NCBI GenBank assembly: GCA_017464305.1
Contig: JAFUDS010000025.1
Span: 1-53,245, forward strand
Length of the DNA stretch: 53,245 nt
Reading direction: 5' to 3'
Origin: Clostridia bacterium
GTDB taxonomy: Bacteria; Bacillota; Clostridia; Christensenellales; Aristaeellaceae
Position 1 is the first letter of the stretch. The number at the start of each line of letters is the position of its first letter. The notes under the pieces were generated by a model. That model was not told the origin of the DNA and ran no database searches. It saw nothing but the letters and a program-made list of their open reading frames with translations. A program made the translations under genes and the position numbers. This document shows positions 9-44,600 of the stretch, in pieces.

Positions 9-152
9 CTCAGGGGCCCTTGGAAGACGTCGGCACTTAGCGGGTGGCGAGCGCGCACGCGCGAAGGCAGCCGCTTTGTGCCGCTACGTCTGGAACGGAG
101 GCGCGAGCCGTGCCCCGGAGGGGAACTCCCGCGCGCTTACGACTAAACAGTT
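9..152 (+). ncRNA. candidate structured RNA or cis-element, copy A (purD leader)
   Basis: This non-coding leader of purD is closely similar to 24931-25059 (copy B), including flanking words such as TCCCGCGCGC. Visible pairings: P1 9-17 with 112-120 (one mismatch); P2 AGACGT (25-30) with ACGTCT (86-91), continued by CGGCAC (31-36) with GTGCCG (78-83); an apical stem AGCGG (39-43) with CCGCT (71-75); and a short hairpin at 95-111 with a bulged GGA and a GCGA (GNRA) loop. A further hairpin, GACT-AAAC-AGTT, follows at 141-152. The P1 pair G16-C113 is A-T in copy B, and the GNRA loop changes sequence while staying GNRA, as expected for a selected RNA fold. The 3' strand of P1 (GGAG, 117-120) can instead pair with CTCC at 126-129. 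I match it to no known riboswitch class. It could also be a structured intergenic repeat without a regulatory role. Confidence 0.5.
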
Positions 153-5202: not shown

Positions 5203-5339
5203 GAATAAAGGAGTCCCCGCAGAGCGGAATATATATCACAAAGCTTTTCCCGCGGAGCGGGGAAAGCAACTAAAAATGCTCCCCCGCGAAGCGGGGGAGT
5301 ATAAACCTCAAGGACTTCTCATGAAAAACAAGCAAGAAA
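5203..5339 (+). repeat. purL-fhs gap with GC-rich hairpins
   Basis: Three related palindromes stand in a row: TCCCCGCAGAGCGGA, TTTCCCGCGGAGCGGGGAAA and CTCCCCCGCGAAGCGGGGGA. The last two are strong hairpins with GGA or GAA triloops. They belong to the same family as the three units at 17275-17491. They could act as weak terminators or mRNA stabilisers between purL and fhs, but none is followed by a clear T-run, so read-through into fhs is likely. An AAGGAGC ribosome binding site for fhs follows. Confidence 0.7.
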
Positions 5340-16207: not shown

Positions 16208-17274
16208 AAACAGAGTTGACGGGAATGAACCCGGCGGAGCTGACGGAATGGGTAAAAGCCCAGGGGCTGCCGGCCTTCAGGGGGAAGCAGATTTTCCAAT
16301 GGATCCATCGGGGGGCGGATTGGCCGGAGATGACGAACCTTTCCGCCGCCCTGCGGGCCCAGATGAGCGATATCGCCATCGCCCAGCCCGTGCGGATTCA
16401 ATTGGAGCGGGTCAGCCAGCTGGATGGCACGGTGAAGTTCCTTTTCTCCCTGCCGGACGGCAACTGCGTCGAGGGGGTGCTGATGCACTACCATTATGGC
16501 TACAGCCTGTGCATCTCCACCCAGGTGGGCTGCCGCATGGGGTGCAAATTCTGCGCCTCCACTCTGGAGGGCTGCGTCCGGAACCTGACGGCGGGGGAGA
16601 TGCTGGGGGAGATTCTGGCGGCCAATCGATACCTGCGGGAGAAGGCCCTCGCGGGGGAAGGGGAAGTGGCCGCGCCCCGGGTCAGCCACGTGGTGCTGAT
16701 GGGCAGCGGCGAGCCCCTGGATAATTACGACCAGGTGATGAAATTCCTGCGGCTGCTGCGGGAGCCGGAGGGGATCCAGATCAGCCTGCGGAACGTGAGC
16801 CTCAGCACCTGCGGCCTGGTGCCGGAGATGCGGCGGCTGGCGGAGGAGGATCTGCCGGTGACCCTGTGCGTTTCCCTCCATGCGCCCAATGATGAGATTC
16901 GCCGGCGCACAATGCCCATCGCCAACAGGTACAGCATGGCGGAGATTCTGGAGGCCTGCCGGTATTACATCGCGAAAACCGGCCGGCGGGTCATCTTCGA
17001 ATACGCCCTGTCGGACGGGGTCAACAGCGGGGAGGACCAGGCCCGGGAGCTGGCGGGGAAGCTGCGGGGCATGCAGTGCCATGTGAACCTGATTCCCCTC
17101 AATGTGGTCAAGGAGCGGGACATGAAGGGCGTTTCGGAGAAGACGGTAACCCGCTTCCTCCGCACCCTGGAGGCGGAGCATATCTCTGCCACCCGGCGCC
17201 GGGAGATGGGGGATGACATCGAAGGAGCCTGCGGCCAGCTGCGAAGAACCACCCTGGCGAAAAACGGTATTTGA
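16204..17274 (+). CDS. rlmN: dual-specificity RNA methyltransferase (23S A2503 / tRNA A37)
   Basis: A radical SAM enzyme making 2-methyladenosine in 23S rRNA and some tRNAs. The 356-residue product has the normal length. The 4Fe-4S cluster motif CxxxCxxC reads CRMGCKFC near residue 112. GSGEPLDNYD near 163 is the GGE-like SAM-binding motif. The C-terminal cysteine that carries the methyl or resolves the adduct lies in IEGACGQLR near 345. It starts inside the end of rsmB (ATGA overlap). The three hairpin units at 17275-17491 follow directly. Confidence 0.96.
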   Translation: MKTELTGMNPAELTEWVKAQGLPAFRGKQIFQWIHRGADWPEMTNLSAALRAQMSDIAIAQPVRIQLERVSQLDGTVKFLFSLPDGNCVEGVLMHYHYGYSLCISTQVGCRMGCKFCASTLEGCVRNLTAGEMLGEILAANRYLREKALAGEGEVAAPRVSHVVLMGSGEPLDNYDQVMKFLRLLREPEGIQISLRNVSLSTCGLVPEMRRLAEEDLPVTLCVSLHAPNDEIRRRTMPIANRYSMAEILEACRYYIAKTGRRVIFEYALSDGVNSGEDQARELAGKLRGMQCHVNLIPLNVVKERDMKGVSEKTVTRFLRTLEAEHISATRRREMGDDIEGACGQLRRTTLAKNGI

Positions 17275-17491
17275 GAAGCTTTCCCCGCGGAGCGGGGGAG
17301 CCAAAAGGGGCACCGCTGCGATAAAGATGCTTGAGGAAACGTAAAAGAATGCTCCCCCGCGGAGCGGGGGAGCGCAAAGGAATTAGCGCTGCAATAAAGA
17401 TGTTTGAGGAAGCGTAAAAGAATGCTCCCCCGCGGAGCGGGGGAGCTAAAAGAAAAAAACGCTTTGAAAAAGATGTTTGAGGAAAAACAGT
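17275..17491 (+). repeat. three tandem units of about 71 nt, each with a GC-rich hairpin
   Basis: Each unit contains TCCCCCGCGGAGCGGGGGAG (7-bp stem, GGA loop; the first copy is slightly altered) and ends with GATGYTTGAGGAA. In the last unit this ending is the ribosome binding site of the PP2C gene. In the first two units the same phrase runs into GTAAAAGAATGC, so the repeat copies a leader containing a Shine-Dalgarno-like sequence and an ATG. Hairpins are not followed by T-runs. The units separate rlmN from the phosphatase/kinase genes. Confidence 0.85.
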
Positions 17492-23637: not shown

Positions 23638-23732
23638 GAAGGGGCTATGGGGGCGAAGCCCCCATAACTAGAATTTTCCCCTTTTCCCTGGTAGGGAAAA
23701 AGGGGGCAGGGGGTAAAAGGGTACATCTCAAG
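23638..23732 (+). repeat. dispersed intergenic repeat, copy 2
   Basis: TGGGGGCGAAGCCCCCA is a perfect hairpin, followed by TTTTCCCCTTTTCCCT and its partner AGGGAAAAAGGGGGCAGGGGG. It has the same order of elements as the other copies, on the same strand, and lies ahead of the alcohol dehydrogenase. The remainder of 23524-23771 shows no gene. Confidence 0.75.
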
Positions 23733-24896: not shown

Positions 24897-24930
24897 ATGG
24901 TATTTGTTTACTCGGGCGAAGGGATGTTAC

Positions 24931-25059
24931 ACTCCGGGACCCTTGGAAGACGTCGGCACTTAGCGGGTGGCGAAGACAGCCGCTTTGTGCCGTTACGTCT
25001 GGAACGGAGCGAGAGCGTGTCCCGGAGTGAAACTCCCGCGCGCCTATGACTGAACAGTC
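24931..25059 (+). ncRNA. candidate structured RNA or cis-element, copy B (radC leader)
   Basis: Second copy of the element at 9-152. P1 is perfect here: ACTCCGGGAC (24931-24940) with GTCCCGGAGT (25019-25028). Inside are AGACGT/ACGTCT, CGGCAC/GTGCCG and AGCGG/CCGCT stems. A short hairpin follows with a bulged GGA and a GAGA (GNRA) loop. The hairpin GACT-GAAC-AGTC is at 25048-25059. The apical loop lacks the GC-rich insert present in copy A, so the outer helices are conserved while the tip varies. GGAGT (25024-25028) can alternatively pair with ACTCC (25032-25036). radC starts 40 nt downstream. Confidence 0.5.
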
Positions 25060-25098: not shown

Positions 25099-26010
25099 AT
25101 GGCAAAGAAGGAAAAGAAACAGCAGGCCAGAACGGAAGACCTCTGGTACATGCGCCCGGAGGAGGTCGATGAGGACTGGGTCGCCGCGGGCTGGTATGTG
25201 GATCCGGCGGGGCTAAAGGGTCGGGATCTGGACACCAAAACTGGCACCTTCGTCCGGGAAACCGCCCAGGCCTATGGCTCTCAGGAAGAACCCCTCTCCC
25301 TGGAGCCCCAGAAAAACCCCAACGCCGGCCATCGGGAAAGGCTGCGGGAGCGCTTCCGGGAAAACCAGAATTTCGATGGCTTCCAGGATCATGAGATTCT
25401 GGAGCTGCTGCTGACTTATGGTAGCCCCCGGAGGGATACGAAGCTGATGGCGAAGGAGCTGCTGGGCACCTACGGCAATCTGAAGGGCGTTTTCGAGGCC
25501 CGGCCGGAATCCCTGATGAGGGTGGAAAACATCGGGGAGATTCAGGCCACCCTGATCTCCATGATGATGCCCCTGACCCGGGCGCTGGTCCAGTGCGAAA
25601 TGGTGAACCCGGAGCAGATCGCCAATCGGCGGGATCTGGAGCGGTATTGCCTCAGCCTGCTGATGGGCAAGCGAGCGGAGGAATTCTGGGTCATTTGCGT
25701 CAATGCCCAATGCCGTATTCTCGGCCAGCGGCGTATCGCCCAGGGCTCCCTCAGCGAGGTCAGCGCCTATCCCCGCATGGTGATGGAAACCGTGCTGGAT
25801 TATAATGCCCATAGCGTTTTCTTCTGCCATAATCACCCCGGCGGAACCTGCGCCCCCTCGGCGGAGGATATCGCCACCACAGTGCAGCTGCAGCGGATTT
25901 TGGGCGGCGTGGAAGTGATGACCCTGGACCATATGATCATCGCTGGCGGCAATGCCTATAGCATGGCTCAGCATGGGGATATCGAGTTCGGTGCCCGGGG
26001 AAGAAGATAG
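25099..26010 (+). CDS. radC: RadC family JAB-domain protein
   Basis: The product has 303 residues. A family-typical helix-hairpin-helix region (about 75-160) reads GHRERLRERFREN, LELLLTYGSPRRDTK and VENIGEIQATLI. It is followed by the JAB/MPN metalloprotease-like domain with the zinc motif FFCHNHPGGTCAPSAED near 245. Despite the name, a repair role is not established for this family; members are also found on mobile elements. The first 70 residues (Lys/Glu-rich, with WVAAGWYVDPAGLKGRD) are an extension I do not recognise. AAGGAGG lies 8 nt before the start. Its leader holds copy B of the structured element. Confidence 0.93.
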   Translation: MAKKEKKQQARTEDLWYMRPEEVDEDWVAAGWYVDPAGLKGRDLDTKTGTFVRETAQAYGSQEEPLSLEPQKNPNAGHRERLRERFRENQNFDGFQDHEILELLLTYGSPRRDTKLMAKELLGTYGNLKGVFEARPESLMRVENIGEIQATLISMMMPLTRALVQCEMVNPEQIANRRDLERYCLSLLMGKRAEEFWVICVNAQCRILGQRRIAQGSLSEVSAYPRMVMETVLDYNAHSVFFCHNHPGGTCAPSAEDIATTVQLQRILGGVEVMTLDHMIIAGGNAYSMAQHGDIEFGARGRR

Positions 26011-26824: not shown

Positions 26825-26918
26825 TACTTCAGGGGCCAGTGGGGGCGGAGCCCCCACTACACTATATTTCCCTTCCCCCTCCGCAGAGGGGGAAAGGGGC
26901 AGGGGTAAGGGGGGTTCC
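26825..26918 (+). repeat. dispersed intergenic repeat, copy 3
   Basis: GTGGGGGCGGAGCCCCCAC is a hairpin, then TTTCCCTTCCCCCTC and GAGGGGGAAAGGGGCAGGGG, paired as a second hairpin. Same element order and strand as the copies near 21.9, 23.6 and 27.7-27.9 kb. It reaches to within 10 nt of rsmG and its G-rich tail may supply the ribosome binding site. Confidence 0.75.
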
Positions 26919-27646: not shown

Positions 27647-27652
27647 GAGAAA

Positions 27653-27805
27653 ACATTCCCGAATCGATTGAAGACGAAGCAGGATTGGCAAACAGAAAGG
27701 GGCCGTAGGGGGAGAAGCCCCACAGCAAACATCCCCGAATCGATTGAAGCCGAAGGAGGATTGGCAAACAGAAAGGGGCCGTGGGGGCGAAGCCCCCACA
27801 ACTAA
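27653..27805 (+). repeat. two tandem units of about 76 nt after rsmG
   Basis: Units at about 27653-27728 and 27729-27805 share CCCGAATCGATTGAAG, AGGATTGGCAAACAGAAA and GGGGCCGT, each ending in a GGGG-AAG-CCCC type hairpin (imperfect in the first, perfect in the second). The second hairpin begins a full copy of the dispersed repeat. Confidence 0.85.
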
Positions 27806-28667: not shown

Positions 28668-28942
28668 AAAAGCTCCTCCCCGAAGGGAAGAAGAAAAGAA
28701 TCTTGAGCGTGACCGAATAACCAAAGAAAAGCTCCTCCCCGAAGGGGAGGAAAAAAGTCCTTGAGTGTGACCGAATAACCAAAGAAACGCTCCTCTCCGA
28801 AGGGGAGGATAAAAGTCCTTGAGCGTGGCCAAATAACCAAAGAAAAGCTCCTCCCCGAAGGGAAGGAGAAAAAAGTCCTTGAGTGTGACCAGATAACCAA
28901 AGAAAAGCTCCTCCCCGAAGGGGAGGAGAAAAAAGAGTCCTT
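28668..28942 (-). repeat. five tandem units of about 58 nt: terminator hairpin plus rnpB 3'-tail
   Basis: Read on the minus strand, i.e. downstream of rnpB, each unit is GGTCACGCTCAAGGACTTTT, then CTCCTCCCC-TTCG-GGGGAGGAG, then CTTTTCTTTGGTTAT. The hairpin has an exceptionally stable UUCG loop and is followed by a T-rich run, so each unit is a functional-looking rho-independent terminator. The GGTTAT...GGTCACGCTC part copies the last bases of RNase P RNA (GGCTTAT-GGTCACGCTC). Units differ by a few substitutions only, so the array looks fairly young. It is not a CRISPR array: there are no unique spacers. Confidence 0.88.
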
Positions 28943-29284
28943 GAGCGTGACCATAAGCCGGGTTCTGTATTGGGCGATCATCTATCCAGGCCATCTGTTA
29001 CCAGATGGCTCCAGCGATCGCGGGAAATGCGGCGAGCAACCGACGATCCCCGCATCTTGCACCGGGTGGGGTTTACAGCAGGGGTATGTTACCATATCCC
29101 TGGGTGAGCTCTTACCTCGCCTTTCCATCCTTACTGAGGAATCGAAACCCCTCAGCGGTTTCTTTCTGTTGCACTCTCCCTGGAGTCGCCTCCGCCGGCC
29201 GTTAGCCGGCACCCTCGCTCTGCGGTGCCCGGACTTTCCTCATACCCCTTGCGGGGCACGCGATCGCCTGTTCACCTCGCGGAC
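28943..29284 (-). ncRNA. rnpB: RNase P RNA
   Basis: The catalytic RNA that matures tRNA 5' ends. On the minus strand the conserved GAGGAAAGTCCGGGC lies near the 5' end, followed by AGAGTGCAACAGAAAG, GGTAAGAGCTCACC, AAACCCCACCCGG and the 3' hallmark ACAGAACCCGGCTTAT. P2 pairs GGCGATC near the 5' end with GATCGCC just before the 3' hallmark. P1 pairs GAGGTGA with TCAC-G-CTC (one bulged base), which sets the ends. The length of about 340 nt fits the A-type fold. Its promoter overlaps the start of the divergent TraX-like gene. Confidence 0.95.
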
Positions 29285-31631: not shown

Positions 31632-31666
31632 CGGCTGACGCATTTCTTATGCATCAGCCGTTTTTT
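31632..31666. terminator. terminator at the left island boundary
   Basis: CGGCTGACGCAT (31632-31643) pairs with ATGCATCAGCCG (31649-31660), followed by six T on the + strand. It ends the metallo-hydrolase gene and coincides with the last codons of the tcdA remnant. The same palindrome recurs at 33810-33834 and 37521-37559. Confidence 0.85.
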
Positions 31667-31811
31667 CAGTTTCGGAGATGGTTCTGGGAATGCCCAGGGT
31701 CAGGTCCTTCACGACCGCCCCGGCGATGATGAACCCCGCCACGGAGGGCACGAAGGCCAGGCTGCCGGGGATATCCCGGCGGTTGATGCATTTGCGCTGG
31801 GTTTCGGGAGG
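31647..31811 (-). pseudogene. tcdA 3'-end remnant (about 54 codons)
   Basis: On the minus strand the last part of TcdA can be read: RRDIPGSLAFVPSVAG, then VVKDLTLGIPRTISETEKTA and the stop. It matches the end of the intact gene at 37539 with few changes, including the flanking terminator and about 20 nt beyond it. The similarity stops abruptly near 31818. No start exists, so this is a non-functional duplicate. It marks the left edge of the 31.6-37.5 kb island. Confidence 0.88.
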
Positions 31812-31896: not shown

Positions 31897-33696
31897 GTGA
31901 GTGATTACAGGGAACAAATCGCAAGATTGGAAGCTGAGATCAGTGTTTTGCCTATAGGCTATATCTCCAATAAGAATATCCATGGAAAAATAAAAAAATA
32001 CCACCAGTGGACAGAAAATGGGAAGAAGATAAGTCGATACCTGGATGACGAAACCGCGGCTGAATTGGCCGTGCTGATTGTACAGCGCCGCGAACTGCAA
32101 AAGGAATTGAAAAAGTTAAAAGCGATGATGCCAAAGGAGAATAAATCTGTGGCCATGAAAGCGCCATATGCATTTAAGACCAATGTCGCCATAGGCGATG
32201 GCCTAAAAAGCTATATCCAATTTGTCTCAGGTATGAAGCACAGGGAATGCTATATCAAACTGACTGACTATCTATACAGAGACGCGTCAGGAAAGGTGTT
32301 TATCCTGTACGGCCTTCGCAGGACTGGAAAGACAACGATGATCCGGCAAGCAATTATGGAAATGTCGCCGGAAAATTTCCAGCAGACGGCATTCATCCAG
32401 ATTAGCGCAAAGAACACGTTGGCAGACATAAACAGTGATATGAAATGGCTGCTGGAGAATCACTATAGGTATGTCTTTCTGGATGAAGTGACGCTTGCGG
32501 AGGACTTTATTGAAGGCGCTGCGCTTTTCTCCGATATCTACGCTGCTTCTGGAATGAAAGTCGTCCTGTCGGGGACGGATTCATTGGGGTTCCTGTTTTC
32601 CGAGAGTGAGGAATTATATGACCGCTGCATCCTTCTGCATACGACCTGGATCCCCTACCGGGAATTTGATCAAGTGCTGGGCATCTCCGGGATTGATGAA
32701 TATATTCGCTATGGCGGCACAATGAGCCTGGGCGGGATCCACTACAACGAACAATCCACATTCGTGTCTAAGAAGAGCACAGATGATTATATAGACAGCG
32801 CCATTGCAAGAAATATCCAGCATTCCCTGAAATATTATCAGTATGGTGACCATTTCAGACACCTGGGTGAACTGTATGATAAACAGGAATTGACCAGCGC
32901 CATCAACCGTGTTGTAGAGGATATCAATCATCGATTTACGATCAGCGTTCTGACGGATGATTTTGTGTCTCACGATCTTGGCCTGTCAGCGAAGAATCTA
33001 CGCAAGGATAGGGCGAATCCTACCGATGTGCTGGACCATATCGACAAGGAAGCTTTTACGGCTGGGCTCAGAAAAAAGCTTGAGATTCTGAACAGGCAGG
33101 AACAAAGCGTTCCAATCACGGAAGCTCATAGGATCGAAATAAAAGAATATCTTGATTTGCTGGATCTCACTGTCGATATTCCAACGGAATATATACCCGT
33201 CAGGAATGAACGGGGATACAGGACAGTGATCGCACAGCCCGGTATGCGCTATGCGCAGGCAGAGGCTTTCATCCGTCAGTTGCTCAACGACGCAGAGTTC
33301 CAAAATATCTCTGCGATGGACAGGGCGGCAATTCAGGATCGGATTATGAACGAGATCCGGGGACGCATGATGGAAGAGATCGTTCTCCTGGAGACGAAGA
33401 TGGCATACCCCAGGAAGCAGGTGTGCAGGCTACAATTCCAGGTCGGTGAGTTTGATATGGTTGTTGTTGATCCGGATCAGGTGACGTGCGAGATTTATGA
33501 GCTAAAGCACAGCAAAGAAATCGTCCCACAACAATACAGATTTCTGGCCGACAAAGATCGCTGCGAAGCAACGGAGTTCAGGTTCGGAACAATCACGAAG
33601 AAAGCGGTTATATACAGGGGGGAAGATTCAGAAGACGGAGGGATATCCTACCTCAATGTCGAAGAATACCTGAAGCGGTTGCCGCGCTTTTATTAA
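31897..33696 (+). CDS. AAA ATPase with C-terminal PD-(D/E)XK-like nuclease domain
   Basis: The product has 599 residues. Residues 1-75 form a charged, partly coiled segment with YHQWTENGKKISRYL, a short module I have seen in other Firmicutes proteins but cannot assign. The ATPase domain has Walker A LYGLRRTGKTTMI near 145, Walker B YRYVFLDEV near 195 and sensor-like VVLSGTDSLG near 225. The C-terminal region has FQVGEFDMVVVD (near 515) and CEIYELKHS (near 530), matching the D and ExK of PD-(D/E)XK nucleases. Such DUF4143-like ATPases are abundant in gut Clostridia and have no settled function. The start is GTG with AAAGGAG upstream. The final 71 codons are duplicated at 35803. Codon use is AT-richer than in the flanking genes, suggesting transfer. 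Confidence 0.82.
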   Translation: MSDYREQIARLEAEISVLPIGYISNKNIHGKIKKYHQWTENGKKISRYLDDETAAELAVLIVQRRELQKELKKLKAMMPKENKSVAMKAPYAFKTNVAIGDGLKSYIQFVSGMKHRECYIKLTDYLYRDASGKVFILYGLRRTGKTTMIRQAIMEMSPENFQQTAFIQISAKNTLADINSDMKWLLENHYRYVFLDEVTLAEDFIEGAALFSDIYAASGMKVVLSGTDSLGFLFSESEELYDRCILLHTTWIPYREFDQVLGISGIDEYIRYGGTMSLGGIHYNEQSTFVSKKSTDDYIDSAIARNIQHSLKYYQYGDHFRHLGELYDKQELTSAINRVVEDINHRFTISVLTDDFVSHDLGLSAKNLRKDRANPTDVLDHIDKEAFTAGLRKKLEILNRQEQSVPITEAHRIEIKEYLDLLDLTVDIPTEYIPVRNERGYRTVIAQPGMRYAQAEAFIRQLLNDAEFQNISAMDRAAIQDRIMNEIRGRMMEEIVLLETKMAYPRKQVCRLQFQVGEFDMVVVDPDQVTCEIYELKHSKEIVPQQYRFLADKDRCEATEFRFGTITKKAVIYRGEDSEDGGISYLNVEEYLKRLPRFY

Positions 33697-33780
33697 ATCC
33701 AGGAAACAGATCTCGGCGTCCTGATCAGCGTGAAGGATGAAAGCATCTTCGTGGAGATGCTTTCGGGAGGAGAGATTTAG
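33697..33780 (+). pseudogene. metallo-hydrolase gene-tail fragment, copy 1
   Basis: Read with the preceding TAT it gives IQETDLGVLISVKDE, then SIFVEMLSGGEI and a stop. This resembles the last 27 residues of the metallo-hydrolase at 30752 (QETEIGILVSIIDGE...VEML), at roughly 60 percent identity by eye. The TAA that ends the ATPase gene sits where that protein has a CAA codon. It is a gene tail without a body. Confidence 0.75.
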
Positions 33781-35721: not shown

Positions 35722-35802
35722 CTTTCGGACTCTCCTCTCCCAAATCTGCGCCGCAAGTATATTACCACATTCAATAAAGAAAGGTAAAGGATAAAATCAT
35801 AT

Positions 35803-36060
35803 GTTGACCCGGATCAGGTGACGTGCGAGATTTATGAGCTAAAGCACAGTAAAGAAATCGTCCCACAACAATACAGATTTCTGGCCGACAAAGATCACTG
35901 CGAAGCAACGGAGTTCAGGTTTGGACCAATCACGAAGAAAGCGGTTATATACAGAGGGAAAGATTCAGAAGGTGGAGGGATATCCTACCTCAATGTCGAA
36001 AAACTCCTGAAGCGGTTGCCGCGCTTTTATCAAATTAGGAAAAAGATATCGGCGTCCTAG
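35803..36060 (+). pseudogene. duplicated 3' end of the 31897 ATPase/nuclease gene
   Basis: 35803-36124 repeats 33466-33787 at more than 90 percent identity by eye: the last 71 codons of the ATPase/nuclease gene (CEIYELKHS onward) followed by the metallo-hydrolase tail. The TAA that ends the full gene is CAA here, so the frame runs on to a TAG at 36058-36060. No start or ATPase domain is present. It is a remnant of a second copy or of a recombination event. Confidence 0.85.
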
Positions 36061-37520: not shown

Positions 37521-37559
37521 AGCGGCTGGTGCATTTCGTTATGCATCAGCCGCTTTTTC
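37521..37559. terminator. terminator at the right island boundary / tcdA end
   Basis: AGCGGCTGGTGCAT (37521-37534) pairs with ATGCATCAGCCGCT (37541-37554), then TTTT on the + strand. The right arm contains the last codons of tcdA. It is the counterpart of 31632-31666. Confidence 0.85.
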
Positions 37560-38336
37560 GGTTTCGGAGGTGGTTCTGGGAATGCCCAGGGTCAGGTCCT
37601 TCACAACCTCCCCGGCGATGATGAGTCCCGCCACGGAGGGCACAAAGGCCAGGCTGCCGGGGATATCCCGGCGATCGGTGCATTTGCGCTGGGTGCCGGG
37701 GGGACAGATGCAATGCAGTCGGCAGGAGATAGCCGGGTCATCCAGGGGGCGGGTGGGCTCCTCCTCGGAATAAACTACCTTCAGCTTCTTTACGCCCCGC
37801 TTCTTGCATTCCCGCCGCATGACCCGGGCCAGGGGGTCCACCCGGGTCTTGTAGATATCCGCCACGCGGAACTGGGTCGGGTCCAGCTTATTTCCCGCGC
37901 CCATGGCGCTGATGATCCGGGTGCCGGTTTCCTGGGCCCGCAGAATCAGCGCCAGCTTGGCCGTCACGGTGTCCACCGCGTCCACCACGTAGTCATATTC
38001 CTCGAAGGGGAATTCCCCGATGTTGTCCCGCAGGACGAAGGTGTTGTATATCCGCACCTCGGCCTTGGGGTTGATGTCGTGAATCCGGTCCGCCATCACT
38101 TCGGTCTTCTGCTTGCCGACGGTCTTGATGGTGGCCAGAATCTGTCGGTTCACATTGGTCAGGCACACCCGGTCGTCGTCGATCAGGTCCAGCGCCCCCA
38201 CCCCCGTCCGGGCCAGGGCTTCGCATACGTATCCGCCCACCCCGCCGATGCCGAAAACGGCCACCCGGGCCTGGGAGAGCCTGTCCATTCCGTCCGCCCC
38301 CAGCAGCAGCCGGGAACGGGAAAATTGATTTTGCAT
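37539..38336 (-). CDS. tcdA: tRNA threonylcarbamoyladenosine dehydratase
   Basis: An E1/ThiF-like ATP-dependent enzyme that cyclises t6A37 of tRNA to ct6A. The product has 265 residues, the family length. FSRSRLLLGADGMDRLSQAR is followed by the nucleotide-binding loop VFGIGGVGGYVCEALARTG near 28, DLIDDDRVCLTNVNRQ near 50 and DYVVDAVDTV near 115. The cysteine-containing LHCICPPGTQRKC lies near 208, and GSLAFVPSVAGLIIAGEVV near the end. The start at 38336 has AAAGGA about 8 nt upstream; a much longer in-frame extension (to 39116) runs antisense through the thioesterase gene and is rejected. Its 3' end is duplicated at 31647. Confidence 0.94.
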   Translation of the reverse strand: MQNQFSRSRLLLGADGMDRLSQARVAVFGIGGVGGYVCEALARTGVGALDLIDDDRVCLTNVNRQILATIKTVGKQKTEVMADRIHDINPKAEVRIYNTFVLRDNIGEFPFEEYDYVVDAVDTVTAKLALILRAQETGTRIISAMGAGNKLDPTQFRVADIYKTRVDPLARVMRRECKKRGVKKLKVVYSEEEPTRPLDDPAISCRLHCICPPGTQRKCTDRRDIPGSLAFVPSVAGLIIAGEVVKDLTLGIPRTTSETEKAADA

Positions 38337-41677: not shown

Positions 41678-44600
41678 ATGAGTATTTCCTGGAAGAAGAG
41701 ACTGTTGGCAGCAATCCTGGCCCTGGTCATGGTGATGGGCGATGTGCCCACCGGCCTGCTTTGGCCGAACAGTGGCCGAGTCACGGCTGAGATCGTGGAA
41801 GACGCGCCTGCCGCCCCGGTGGTCCTGGAAGGCACCATCCTTTCTGACGACGCGCCCGCGGGAGAGGCAAACGCCCCGGCTCAGCCCGAAGCGGATAGCC
41901 CGGCCGCCCCTGCGGCGGAGGAGCCCGCGGTCCCGGCTTCGGAGTCTACTGATAATGAAGATCAGTCCGCTCCGGCCGAAGCCCCTGCCCAGGAATCGGT
42001 GAACGCCACCGAATCTACCCTCGAGGGCGAAAACGTGCCCACATGGGGGGGTGTTTCTTCTGATGTAACAACAGGGGATCCGTCTGCCCAGGAGGCGAAT
42101 CAGTCCCAGGAAGCTGATTCCGCCATAGATGCAGCCCCTTCCCAGGAAGAGACCCACTCCGATAGTTATGACGAAATTTCGAACGAAAATCAGCCCGAAA
42201 TCGCTGATTCTGAAAATTCTGTTACGCCGGTTTCGGAGGATGCTTCCTCCGCTCAGTCCGGGGAAAATACCCCCGCGGACGCGGATGTAACGGAAAAGAC
42301 ATCTGATGAATCCGCCGCCTCCGACGAGCAGACCCCTGACTCCACCCAGGAGGGAGAGGAAGCCTCCCAGGATACCCAGGGTCAGCCCAGCGAGGAAGCT
42401 CAGCTCCAGGAAGATTCCGCTGACGAAGTAGAGGAAATGCTGGTCGGCGAAACCAAGAAGATCGATCTGACCACCCAAGGCGCCACCGTGCGCCTCTCCG
42501 TGAAGAAAACGGAAACCCTGGCCCTGTTGACCAAGGGCGCGGAAGCTTGGGTGAATATCGCTCGGGACGACGAGAAGGGCGAGGACTACCTGCCGGAGAA
42601 TGGAAAGCTGCAGGTCTTCTTCCCCGTAAAGTCTGGCGAGTATAACCTGACCTTCACCCTCATGCCCGGCGCCACGGAAGGCAAGCTCGAAATCACCATC
42701 CTGACCCAGCAGGAAGCCGAAGCCAAGCTGGGGATCACCAGTGATGCCCAAAAGAGTGAAACCACCCCGGCCACTGAAGCCGAAACCAACGCCTCCGAGG
42801 AGAACCAGGAAACCACCGATCAAAACGATACTATATATAATGAAGAAACTCCTACCAAAGAGGACGAAAACGAGAATAATAACGAAGATGAACTGACCGA
42901 AGAAAACGGCGACGAAGAAGCAACCGAACCCACCGAAGAAAAGGTTGACGAAGAGACAACCGAACCCACTGAAGAAAACAACGACGAAGAAACAACCGAA
43001 CCTACTGAAGAAAATAGCGACGAAGAAACAACTGAACCCACCGAAGAAAACGGCGACGAAGAAACAACTGAGCCCACTGAAGAAAATAGCGACGAAGAAA
43101 CAACCGAACCTACCGAAGAAAACACCGGCGAAGAGACAACCGAACCCACTGAAGAAAACAACGACGAAGATACAAGCGAACCCACCGCAGAAAATAGCGA
43201 CGAAGAAATAACTGAACCTACTGAAGATAATAGCGACGAAGAAGCTGAACCCAACGAAGAAGACCAGGCAGAAGATCAGGAGATCGTCACCGACGAGAAG
43301 GATGAAACCATCCTGGATAAGCTGGAGCTCTCCAGCGAAGATCTGACCATAAAGCCCCTGACCGATGAGGAAACGGAGCGCTATGCCCAACTGCTGAGCG
43401 GCGCCCCCAGCAAACAGCAAATCAAGAAGGCCCCCCAGGCTAATCAGACCAAGGCCCTGGAGCCCAGCGAAGGAGAGGAGTCTGCCCAGACGCTGGAGCC
43501 CATTACCGGTTTCGTGGCCTTCGATATCAGCCGCAACGCCAGCGAAGATGAACCCTTAAAGGAAGCGGAAACCTACATCGCTCATATCGATCTGGATACC
43601 CCCTACGCCCTGCCCCAGGCAGAAGGCGCGGAAATTGCCTCCGTAACCTATGAACTCTATCACTTTGATGCGGATACCAACACCCTCACCAAGGTAGAAG
43701 CGAGCTTCCGTGATGATTATGCCACCGGTCTGCTCTATGGCTTCGATTTCGAAACTACCGGCTTCTCCCCCTATGTGGTGAAGTATACGGTGGATTTTAG
43801 TTACATCGGCGAAGACGGCGAGACATATGAATTCTCTATGCCCGGCGGCGGAGTACTTCTGCTGAGCGAATTGTTTGATGCCTTGCACATTGATGAGAAT
43901 GTGGCGGATGTTGTTGATGTAACATTTACTGACTATTCACTTCTTGAGATCAGTCGCATAAGTAAAAATACACAAGTTGAAGAATCCCGTGTGCCCGCTG
44001 CTCGGATAAGCATCGAGGCAGCAGCTGCTTTGCCTGACGGCGAAGTGCTGTATAGTGATGAGTGGAATATTACCTATAAATCTGCAAATGCCGGTGATTG
44101 GACAATCACAAGCTTGAAAAAGTTTTCGACAGAAGAGAAACTTACTGTTACGTTCGCTAAAGGCCGAACGATAGTTATCGACGTAACAGACGAACAATAC
44201 CATGGAATTGATATTAATGATGGGAAAGTATCTCTGCAGGCAGTAACAAGTGCAATACATGCCTCTACGGCAAGCAATGTTACTGAAACACCTCAAGAAA
44301 CAAATGCCGCTTTTGATGTGTCTATCGTATCTTTGCTTTCTGACAATGGATTACAAGCAATTCAGGATTACATCGAAGCCAATGGCAGCATTCCCGCAAT
44401 TGAGTATGATTTTTCCGACTATTTGGCAGCCAGCCCGTTGAAAGAACAGGTTTCAGGAGCGATCATTGACCTGAAGGATAATGGTAATGTTATCGGAACG
44501 GTTACTATTGACGCTAATGGCAAGGCGACAATTCAGTATACTGATAAAGATTGGCTAATGCGTAAGAGCCAATTGTCTGTTAAGTTTACCATGACAGTGC

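Follow-up and report, generated by a model that had tools for sequence, protein, structure and literature searches.

The two folded regions that stand ahead of purD and radC in the window, by which we mean the whole stretch of 53,245 nucleotides analyzed here (contig JAFUDS010000025.1 of a Clostridia bacterium), are two of about thirty copies of a dispersed, MITE-like hairpin repeat and are not switches of those two genes. The best explanation, which we regard as reasonably probable, is a dispersed repeat of this type whose selected form is a folded single strand, most likely RNA. The fold is clearly preserved by evolution, its stems covarying strongly and showing no decay, and as far as these searches go the family is new, and of a known general kind, that of the dispersed hairpin repeats.

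The regions first singled out in the preliminary description, 9–152 (copy A) and 24931–25059 (copy B), align at 80% mean column identity and share, as had been proposed there, one multi-stem fold, in which the long stem P1 opens into a three-way junction that carries the bulged P2/P3 arm, variable at its apex, and the very small hairpin P4. The finer features read in that description are also present: the P1 pair G16-C113 of copy A is A24939-T25020 in copy B; P4 is GGC-GCGA-GCC in the former and GC-GAGA-GC in the latter, so that the stem changes length while the preceding GGA and the GNRA loop are kept; the words TTGGA and CTGGAACGGA are common to both; and a GC-rich apical insert is found in copy A alone of the two, being one among many copy-specific apical inserts in the family. 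Copy A extends over positions 1–152 of the forward strand, between the start of the window and purD, and scored 102.2 bits in cmsearch (2–127); its 3' outer arm is followed to about position 150 with the help of the syntenic copy L086 of a close relative, and the contig begins inside its 5' arm. The P1 arms lie at 3–17 and 112–126, the junction strands at 18–24 (CCTTGGA) and 92–99 (GGAACGGA), and P4, with its GNRA loop, at 100–109, as placed by the sequence together with the fold, the model alignment, or the loop tallies. Fold and covariation delimit the P2/P3 hairpin (25–91), with a CT bulge at 84–85 and the variable insert at 44–70, and the 3' outer arm (127–150) has its 5' partner beyond the contig end, the paired arm being visible in L086. 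The strand CCTTGGA was part of the search pattern and is for that reason invariant in the copies found with it; it varies in a second family (f58). Copy B, also on the forward strand, is complete (24921–25059; 115.7 bits at 24925–25034) and lies between a gene for an iron-type alcohol dehydrogenase, assigned by Pfam, and radC. Its fold comprises the P1 arms (24926–24940 and 25019–25033), the P2/P3 hairpin (24948–25000) with a TT bulge at 24993–24994, P4 (25009–25016), and a 3' outer arm and tail (25034–25059), in which TCCC pairs with 24921–24924. Copy B folds as RNA with a z-score of -5.2, none of 200 shuffles being as good. Copy A alone is unexceptional (z = -1.4; 23 of 200 shuffles as good), probably because the start of the contig cuts its 5' arm and its GC content is very high.

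The preliminary description counted two copies, a number that falls far short of the contents of the same genome (G000, a draft of 2.53 Mb, 68.6% complete). BLAST recovered 42 pieces, among which are halves of a single copy, and R1, a covariance model derived from 24 copies of several genomes, recovered 34 places at E ≤ 0.01, a count in which a copy cut by a contig break may appear twice, given that several contigs start or stop inside a copy. As is typical of MITEs, the element is short (approximately 110–240 nt), noncoding, multicopy, and intergenic, and many copies of this genome carry imperfect terminal inverted repeats, TGCGAAGGGA / TCCCGCGCGCA or near variants; many likewise extend from TGCGAAGGGATG to CTCCCGCGCGCA, or close variants of these, which again form an imperfect inverted repeat at the termini. 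Copies differ in their modules, by the apical insert, a domain of about 100 nt in place of P4, a second 3' hairpin, or the loss of the P2/P3 arm. The domain of about 100 nt has a branched fold of its own and was noted in L021, L022, L037, and L039–L042 of the window's genome, in L032 and L097 of other species of the genus, and in L237 of G332. It replaces P4 in some copies, but in L032 it occupies the apex of P3, and L097 has only part of it; in L237, whose site is orthologous to that of L016, it seems to occur with no element around it. It is apparently an independent nested repeat, and its example in L041 matched no Rfam family at threshold. The second hairpin module (GTTTTTCACGCCCGGAAAACAGTCCAGTGGACTGTTTTC... 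in the window's genome) is found at the 3' side of L008, L036, and L046 of that genome, L054 of G332, and L261 of G326, and is common to species of the genus.

Conservation of the fold was assessed in the alignment A2, in which 91.9% of the cells are paired, against 76.9% after shuffling, and 128 cells show changes on both sides of a pair, against 38.9 after shuffling and only 5 cells with a one-sided change. All slid registers score far below the unslid one, a comparison that favors the latter, because the rows were selected by a pattern and themselves served to draw the structure. Between orthologous copies of family f58 (six pairs, all between two species of one genus), the core is identical at 432/457 positions (94.5%), against 367/584 (62.8%) for the adjoining 45 nt, which consist of outer arms and spacer, and 5977/6575 for the distant flank, which is largely coding. 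The six pairs of the window's genus gave 509/538 (94.6%), 399/460, and 4812/5061 (95.1%), respectively, so that here the core is kept no better than the coding flank (94.6 vs 95.1%). All 12 pairs were hand-chosen among syntenic pairs, and one f58 pair, L210/L156, runs against the trend with a core just 75% identical. The preliminary description had named dozens of copies lacking a preference for gene leaders, together with decayed stems, as the mark of a MITE-like repeat: the dozens of copies without such a preference are what we found, but the stems are not decayed.

The selected form of the element is probably one folded strand, and probably RNA, ahead of a DNA hairpin but not by much. The GNRA rule, by which a loop reads G, any base, purine, A, is a rule of RNA. 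Of the 142 readable P4 loops, 135 conform to it (63/65 in the window's genus and 72/77 elsewhere), while GNYA occurs in a single one; the third base is a purine in 135 of 136 G..A loops and the second place takes all four bases. These loops were read as GC-NNNN-GC in 142 of 184 copies, the other 42 being unreadable by that rule; the 184 (176 with full arms) were kept out of 213 model rows after leaving out short rows, overlapping antisense rows, and those of L147. The tally comes from related, and hence not independent, copies found by a model biased toward loops of this kind; in a set of 69 copies obtained by BLAST or pattern, the register with the longest stem gives a GNRA loop in 45, and in 14 more this loop appears in the register one pair shorter. 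The arms of the window's genus, for their part, contain 88 isolated G.U pairs against 17 A.C, or 46 against 15 when a repeated context is counted once per genome, whereas outside the genus the excess is not significant (58 vs 48, p = 0.38); an earlier count of this kind left out 1/97 and 26/116 rows that were antisense, cut off, or poorly paired. A scarcity of G.U had been considered as proof of a DNA hairpin, an argument weakened by the 6.9% of G.U in the genus arms; the RNase P RNA of the window itself, the single molecule taken as a yardstick, has 8 G.U and 3 A.C among 100 pairs. This RNase P RNA is of class A and lies at 28938–29279 on the reverse strand.

The explanation that survives best beside the preferred one is that of a DNA hairpin, single-stranded or cruciform, recognized by a transposase or recombinase, with covariation that reflects DNA hairpin function and template switching between arms and with no role for RNA; we give it a real but clearly smaller chance. 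It would agree with the mixed orientation of the copies relative to genes, the absence of a promoter excess and of a T-run described below, the dominance of two-sided over one-sided changes in A2, and the lack of a significant G.U excess outside the genus, and the two DNA strands of copy B also fold well (z = -6.3 and -5.8). Against it stand the nearly invariable purine at the third position of the P4 loop, the predominance of G.U over A.C in the window's genus, and the fact that the obvious mover of a DNA hairpin, an HUH (Y1) transposase, had no match in G332, G325, and G326, which hold 25, 12, and 13 copies in assemblies 83, 91, and 54% complete. Y1 genes are present in element-free genomes such as G010 and G013. 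Among 41 genomes of the genus, many of whose assemblies are incomplete, copy number was correlated neither with Y1 transposases (PF01797; rho = -0.17, p = 0.30) nor with reverse transcriptases (PF00078; rho = 0.14, p = 0.39), the two families tested, and both were set aside as the mover. A transposase between divergent copies was also considered for L077, where the gap is 834 nt, and the 184-codon frame found there resembles, by eye, a phosphoesterase.

The outer arms bear on the same question. The pairing of the 5' arm of a copy with its own 3' arm, compared with its pairing with that of another copy, was 54.8 vs 8.0 in G357, 49.2 vs 8.5 in G506, 50.2 vs 6.7 in G441, and 37.9 vs 11.0 in G416, so that outer stems are copy-specific in these four, out of six f58 genomes with a sufficient number of copies; a Butyrivibrio MAG with four copies gave 64.0 vs 15.5. 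Arms are largely shared among copies in G682 (50.5 vs 33.7) and in the CANRVK MAG (44.6 vs 28.8), the contrast is small in the window's genome (28.4 vs 21.6), and it is almost nil in G325 (27.4 vs 28.0) and G326 (21.4 vs 18.9). The orthologues L211 and L219 are identical at 74 of 78 core positions, and their outer arms are unrelated in sequence, each being well paired, an observation that speaks for the DNA hairpin. Template switching is known to homogenize arms (PMC8604942), and it too would favor that explanation. Copy-specific arms may come from conversion between dispersed copies or from fresh insertion in the same spacer.

Comparison of close relatives shows a family in flux, whether through insertion, internal deletion, or a combination of them. 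For 15 copies of the window's genome, chosen non-randomly as those without a seen syntenic partner, the flanks were sought in G332, a relative about 95% identical; both were found for 10 of the sites, and at all 10 the relative is without the full element. Element and outer arms are both missing at five of these sites (L003, L019, L022, L028, and L029), the outer hairpin remains without the core at L008, L012, and L018, one arm is left at L004, and at L016 the element is replaced by an apparent module of about 100 nt. Two further sites (L071 and L082) are without the element of the window's genome, the pair L063/L034 reveals a deleted copy in the window's genome itself, and five other sites common to both genomes could be aligned. 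No target-site duplication was visible at the 10 compared sites, in which the direction of change is not polarized.

Multicopy genes for trans-acting small RNAs, or antitoxin-like RNAs, each with a promoter of its own, are an unlikely alternative. The conservation of the core between orthologues and the strand bias of the GNRA loop would suit them, as would the arrangement of close copies: among the fetched loci, and leaving out L147, a repeat of L137, nine of the pairs spaced by under 200 nt are divergent and one is tandem, with no convergent example. The second member of such a pair is often, by eye, a diverged subtype. However, the gap between divergent copies can be as small as 42–90 nt, and arms fill most of the shorter spacers; the number of copies ranges from 0 to 33 within one genus; and the promoter and terminator searches that follow also count against them. 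A promoter of its own was rejected for the element because promoter-like sites are not in excess upstream of its 5' end: sites that point into it were found from the 5' side in 13/89 and from the 3' side in 8/89 copies of the genus set, and in 33/87 and 34/87, respectively, of the other set, and the commonest sites point away from the 5' side (18/89 in the genus and 45/87 in the other set). An intrinsic terminator was likewise rejected, at least four T within the 12 nt after the stem being present in just 8/89 copies of the genus set and 6/88 of the other.

The position of the copies relative to genes was analyzed in 47 copies with flanking sequence, some of them orthologues of each other, using gene calls from our own codon-bias ORF caller and allowing a neighbor to enter the element by up to 45 nt; none of the 47 overlaps a called gene by more than that. 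Between co-directional genes, 22 copies run against the direction of the genes and 10 with it (p = 0.05), from which it follows that most such copies would not be read on the GNRA strand in the mRNA of their neighbors. Five other copies lie between divergent and three between convergent genes, seven stand at the end of a contig or locus with no neighbor on that side, and the downstream gene is on the strand of the element in 18 of 45 copies, so that no consistent sense-strand position before a class of genes emerged. A Chi- or KOPS-like orientation was also discarded, the copies on contig C5 of G357, the contig examined for this purpose, facing both ways. As for purD, located in 36 of the 41 genomes of the genus, 31 upstream regions were searched without filters, the arrangement in the window's genome and in G332 was known already, and G018, G020, and G324 have no usable upstream sequence. 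An element precedes purD in 4 of 33 genomes, namely the two just mentioned, G014, where it is antisense, and G326, where it is sense with extra modules, and most of the other upstream regions retain, by eye, the conserved end of the upstream gene and a spacer without anything similar. The proposal of the preliminary description that the folds are cis-regulatory leaders (riboswitches or attenuators) of purD and radC is therefore very improbable, because, although both window copies lie on the strand of the downstream gene, 20–40 nt before its start codon as had been stated (purD at 173–1441, with the Pfam domains GARS_N/A/C, and radC at 25099–26010, with the RadC domain, both on the forward strand and outside the element), and both are retained in G332, the element occupies 34 places of the genome in either orientation, has a same-strand downstream gene in a minority of copies, is absent before purD in 29 of 33 genomes of the genus and reversed in G014, and matches no Rfam family at threshold.

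Returning to the repeat with a folded single strand, the family would be one of short, MITE-like intergenic repeats, each a long hairpin tipped by a three-way junction (P1, P2/P3, and P4). The folded strand may be needed for the spread of the element itself, or for its retention by a trans-acting factor. In the host, the element could act like ERIC, BOX, or Correia repeats, its hairpin altering the processing or stability of a transcript that crosses it. Its arms may be kept complementary in part by template switching from one arm to the other and by conversion among copies, and not by point compensation alone. A more daring version of this explanation, which we offer as a speculation and consider rather improbable, is that of an undescribed selfish structured RNA of Clostridia, a mobile hairpin spread by its folded RNA, with a Y-shaped, GNRA-docked core that would conceivably be a small ribozyme or a protein-bound tag, and with arms rewritten in each copy yet complementary.

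To follow the family beyond the window, an exact pattern of its 5' half was run over a genome collection and matched 42 stretches, of which 18 belong to RGIG4436, a very close relative, 13 to a MAG labeled Eubacteriaceae, and three to a Butyrivibrio MAG, the remainder being in other Clostridia and Lachnospiraceae MAGs and in one contig labeled Succinivibrionaceae. The latter (L058, JAFURY010000052.1) bears a copy typical of RGIG4436 and is probably a mis-binned Clostridia contig. With the model R1, the element was found in 25 of 41 sampled genomes of the window's genus (0–33 copies each) and in 66 of 150 genomes of family f58, representing 65 of 149 genera; the labels of the pattern-matched contigs suggest that f58 is Lachnospiraceae. 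At wider ranks it was found in at least 5 of 297 genomes of the order, all five of the window's genus, at least 10 of 391 of the class, nine of them of f58, and at least 5 of 398 of the phylum, including one that belongs to another class. The tallies of these large samples are lower bounds owing to stricter filters, with the window's genome counted where it was sampled, and the copy counts for order, class, and phylum are also lower bounds, with 12, 9, and 9 candidates scored per genome, respectively, as compared with 24 in f58. Viral contigs had no match to the pattern, and a distant blastn search of plasmid and phage collections had none to the element.

When the window, each of its two copies, and 20 related loci were scanned against Rfam, nothing was placed on the element at the threshold of any family, and relaxed thresholds gave only chance-level scores on both copies; an example of such a score is 28.8 bits, for a miRNA family with a cut-off of 70, on L140. 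The preliminary description is supported in its view of a structure under selection, and no Rfam threshold is reached. In other genomes, a raiA RNA (L093, 383–587, reverse strand) and a glmS ribozyme (L251, 1751–1907, forward strand) lie near copies of the element. No description of this repeat family appeared in the searches made of open-access literature.

BOX and RUP, intergenic hairpin repeats of bacteria, illustrate the general kind to which the family can be assigned. With ERIC and Correia/NEMIS (PMC10969869), the element shares its short, noncoding, multicopy, and intergenic nature, the hairpin, presence or absence between relatives, and imperfect terminal inverted repeats. It differs from repeats of the MITE/ERIC type in having a Y-shaped core with a GNRA mini-hairpin and stems that covary instead of decaying, in the outer stem that changes from copy to copy in four of six f58 genomes, in the lack of a target-site duplication or of a parent transposase as far as Y1 and reverse transcriptase were tested, and in its occurrence in 65 of 149 f58 genera. 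REP/BIME sequences, with their RAYT transposases (PMC3733652), are also imperfect palindromes between genes that occur in close inverted pairs, which the close divergent pairs seen here resemble, and REPs measure 20–40 bp, against approximately 110–240 nt for our element. The latter is not a palindrome of 20–40 bp with an invariant GTAG or CGTC tag, nor does it come with a RAYT/Y1 gene, Y1 being absent from the three copy-bearing genomes mentioned above; the foot of P2, GTAG in copy A when taken on the opposite strand and GTAA in copy B, was rejected as a RAYT tag on account of this difference. The stem-loop sequence families of PMC2267715 are of the same general kind, dispersed stem-loop repeats identified separately in each genome, those of Clostridium species among them; they are given by species, no Y-shaped family is noted in the passages considered, and the distinction is one of description. 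Structured RNA candidates from human microbiomes (PMC8040213) include some called palindromic and not predicted to be terminators, a likeness again by description, and the element may or may not be identical with one of them.

The window also contains other short hairpin repeats, of the CCCCGAAGGGG and CCCCGCGGAGCGGGG types, at 28678–28932, 17274–17459, 5239–5307, 27648–27804, 23639–23670, and 26831–26862, some of them in tandem units of 58–76 nt and one array immediately next to the gene for RNase P RNA. A local duplication is suggested by two pairs of direct repeats, 33465–33698 with 35802–36035 (94% identical) and 31647–31811 with 37539–37703 (92%). From 41678 to the contig end at 53245, a frame remains open for 3856 codons, with about ten tandem units of 36 nt near 42817–43315, and may encode a repetitive surface protein of giant size.

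Numbering from 0 to more than 30 copies per genome, present in nearly half of the sampled f58 genera (65/149), and unmatched in Rfam, the element represents a large feature of gut Clostridia that has gone without annotation. Assemblies break at it, with several contigs ending inside a copy, and it can pass for a riboswitch if just one or two copies are seen. Its fold and the behavior of its arms are unusual, in that the customary picture of MITEs does not predict them, and the family is well suited to the study of why a complex fold should be retained by a mobile repeat and of how copy-specific palindromes stay complementary.
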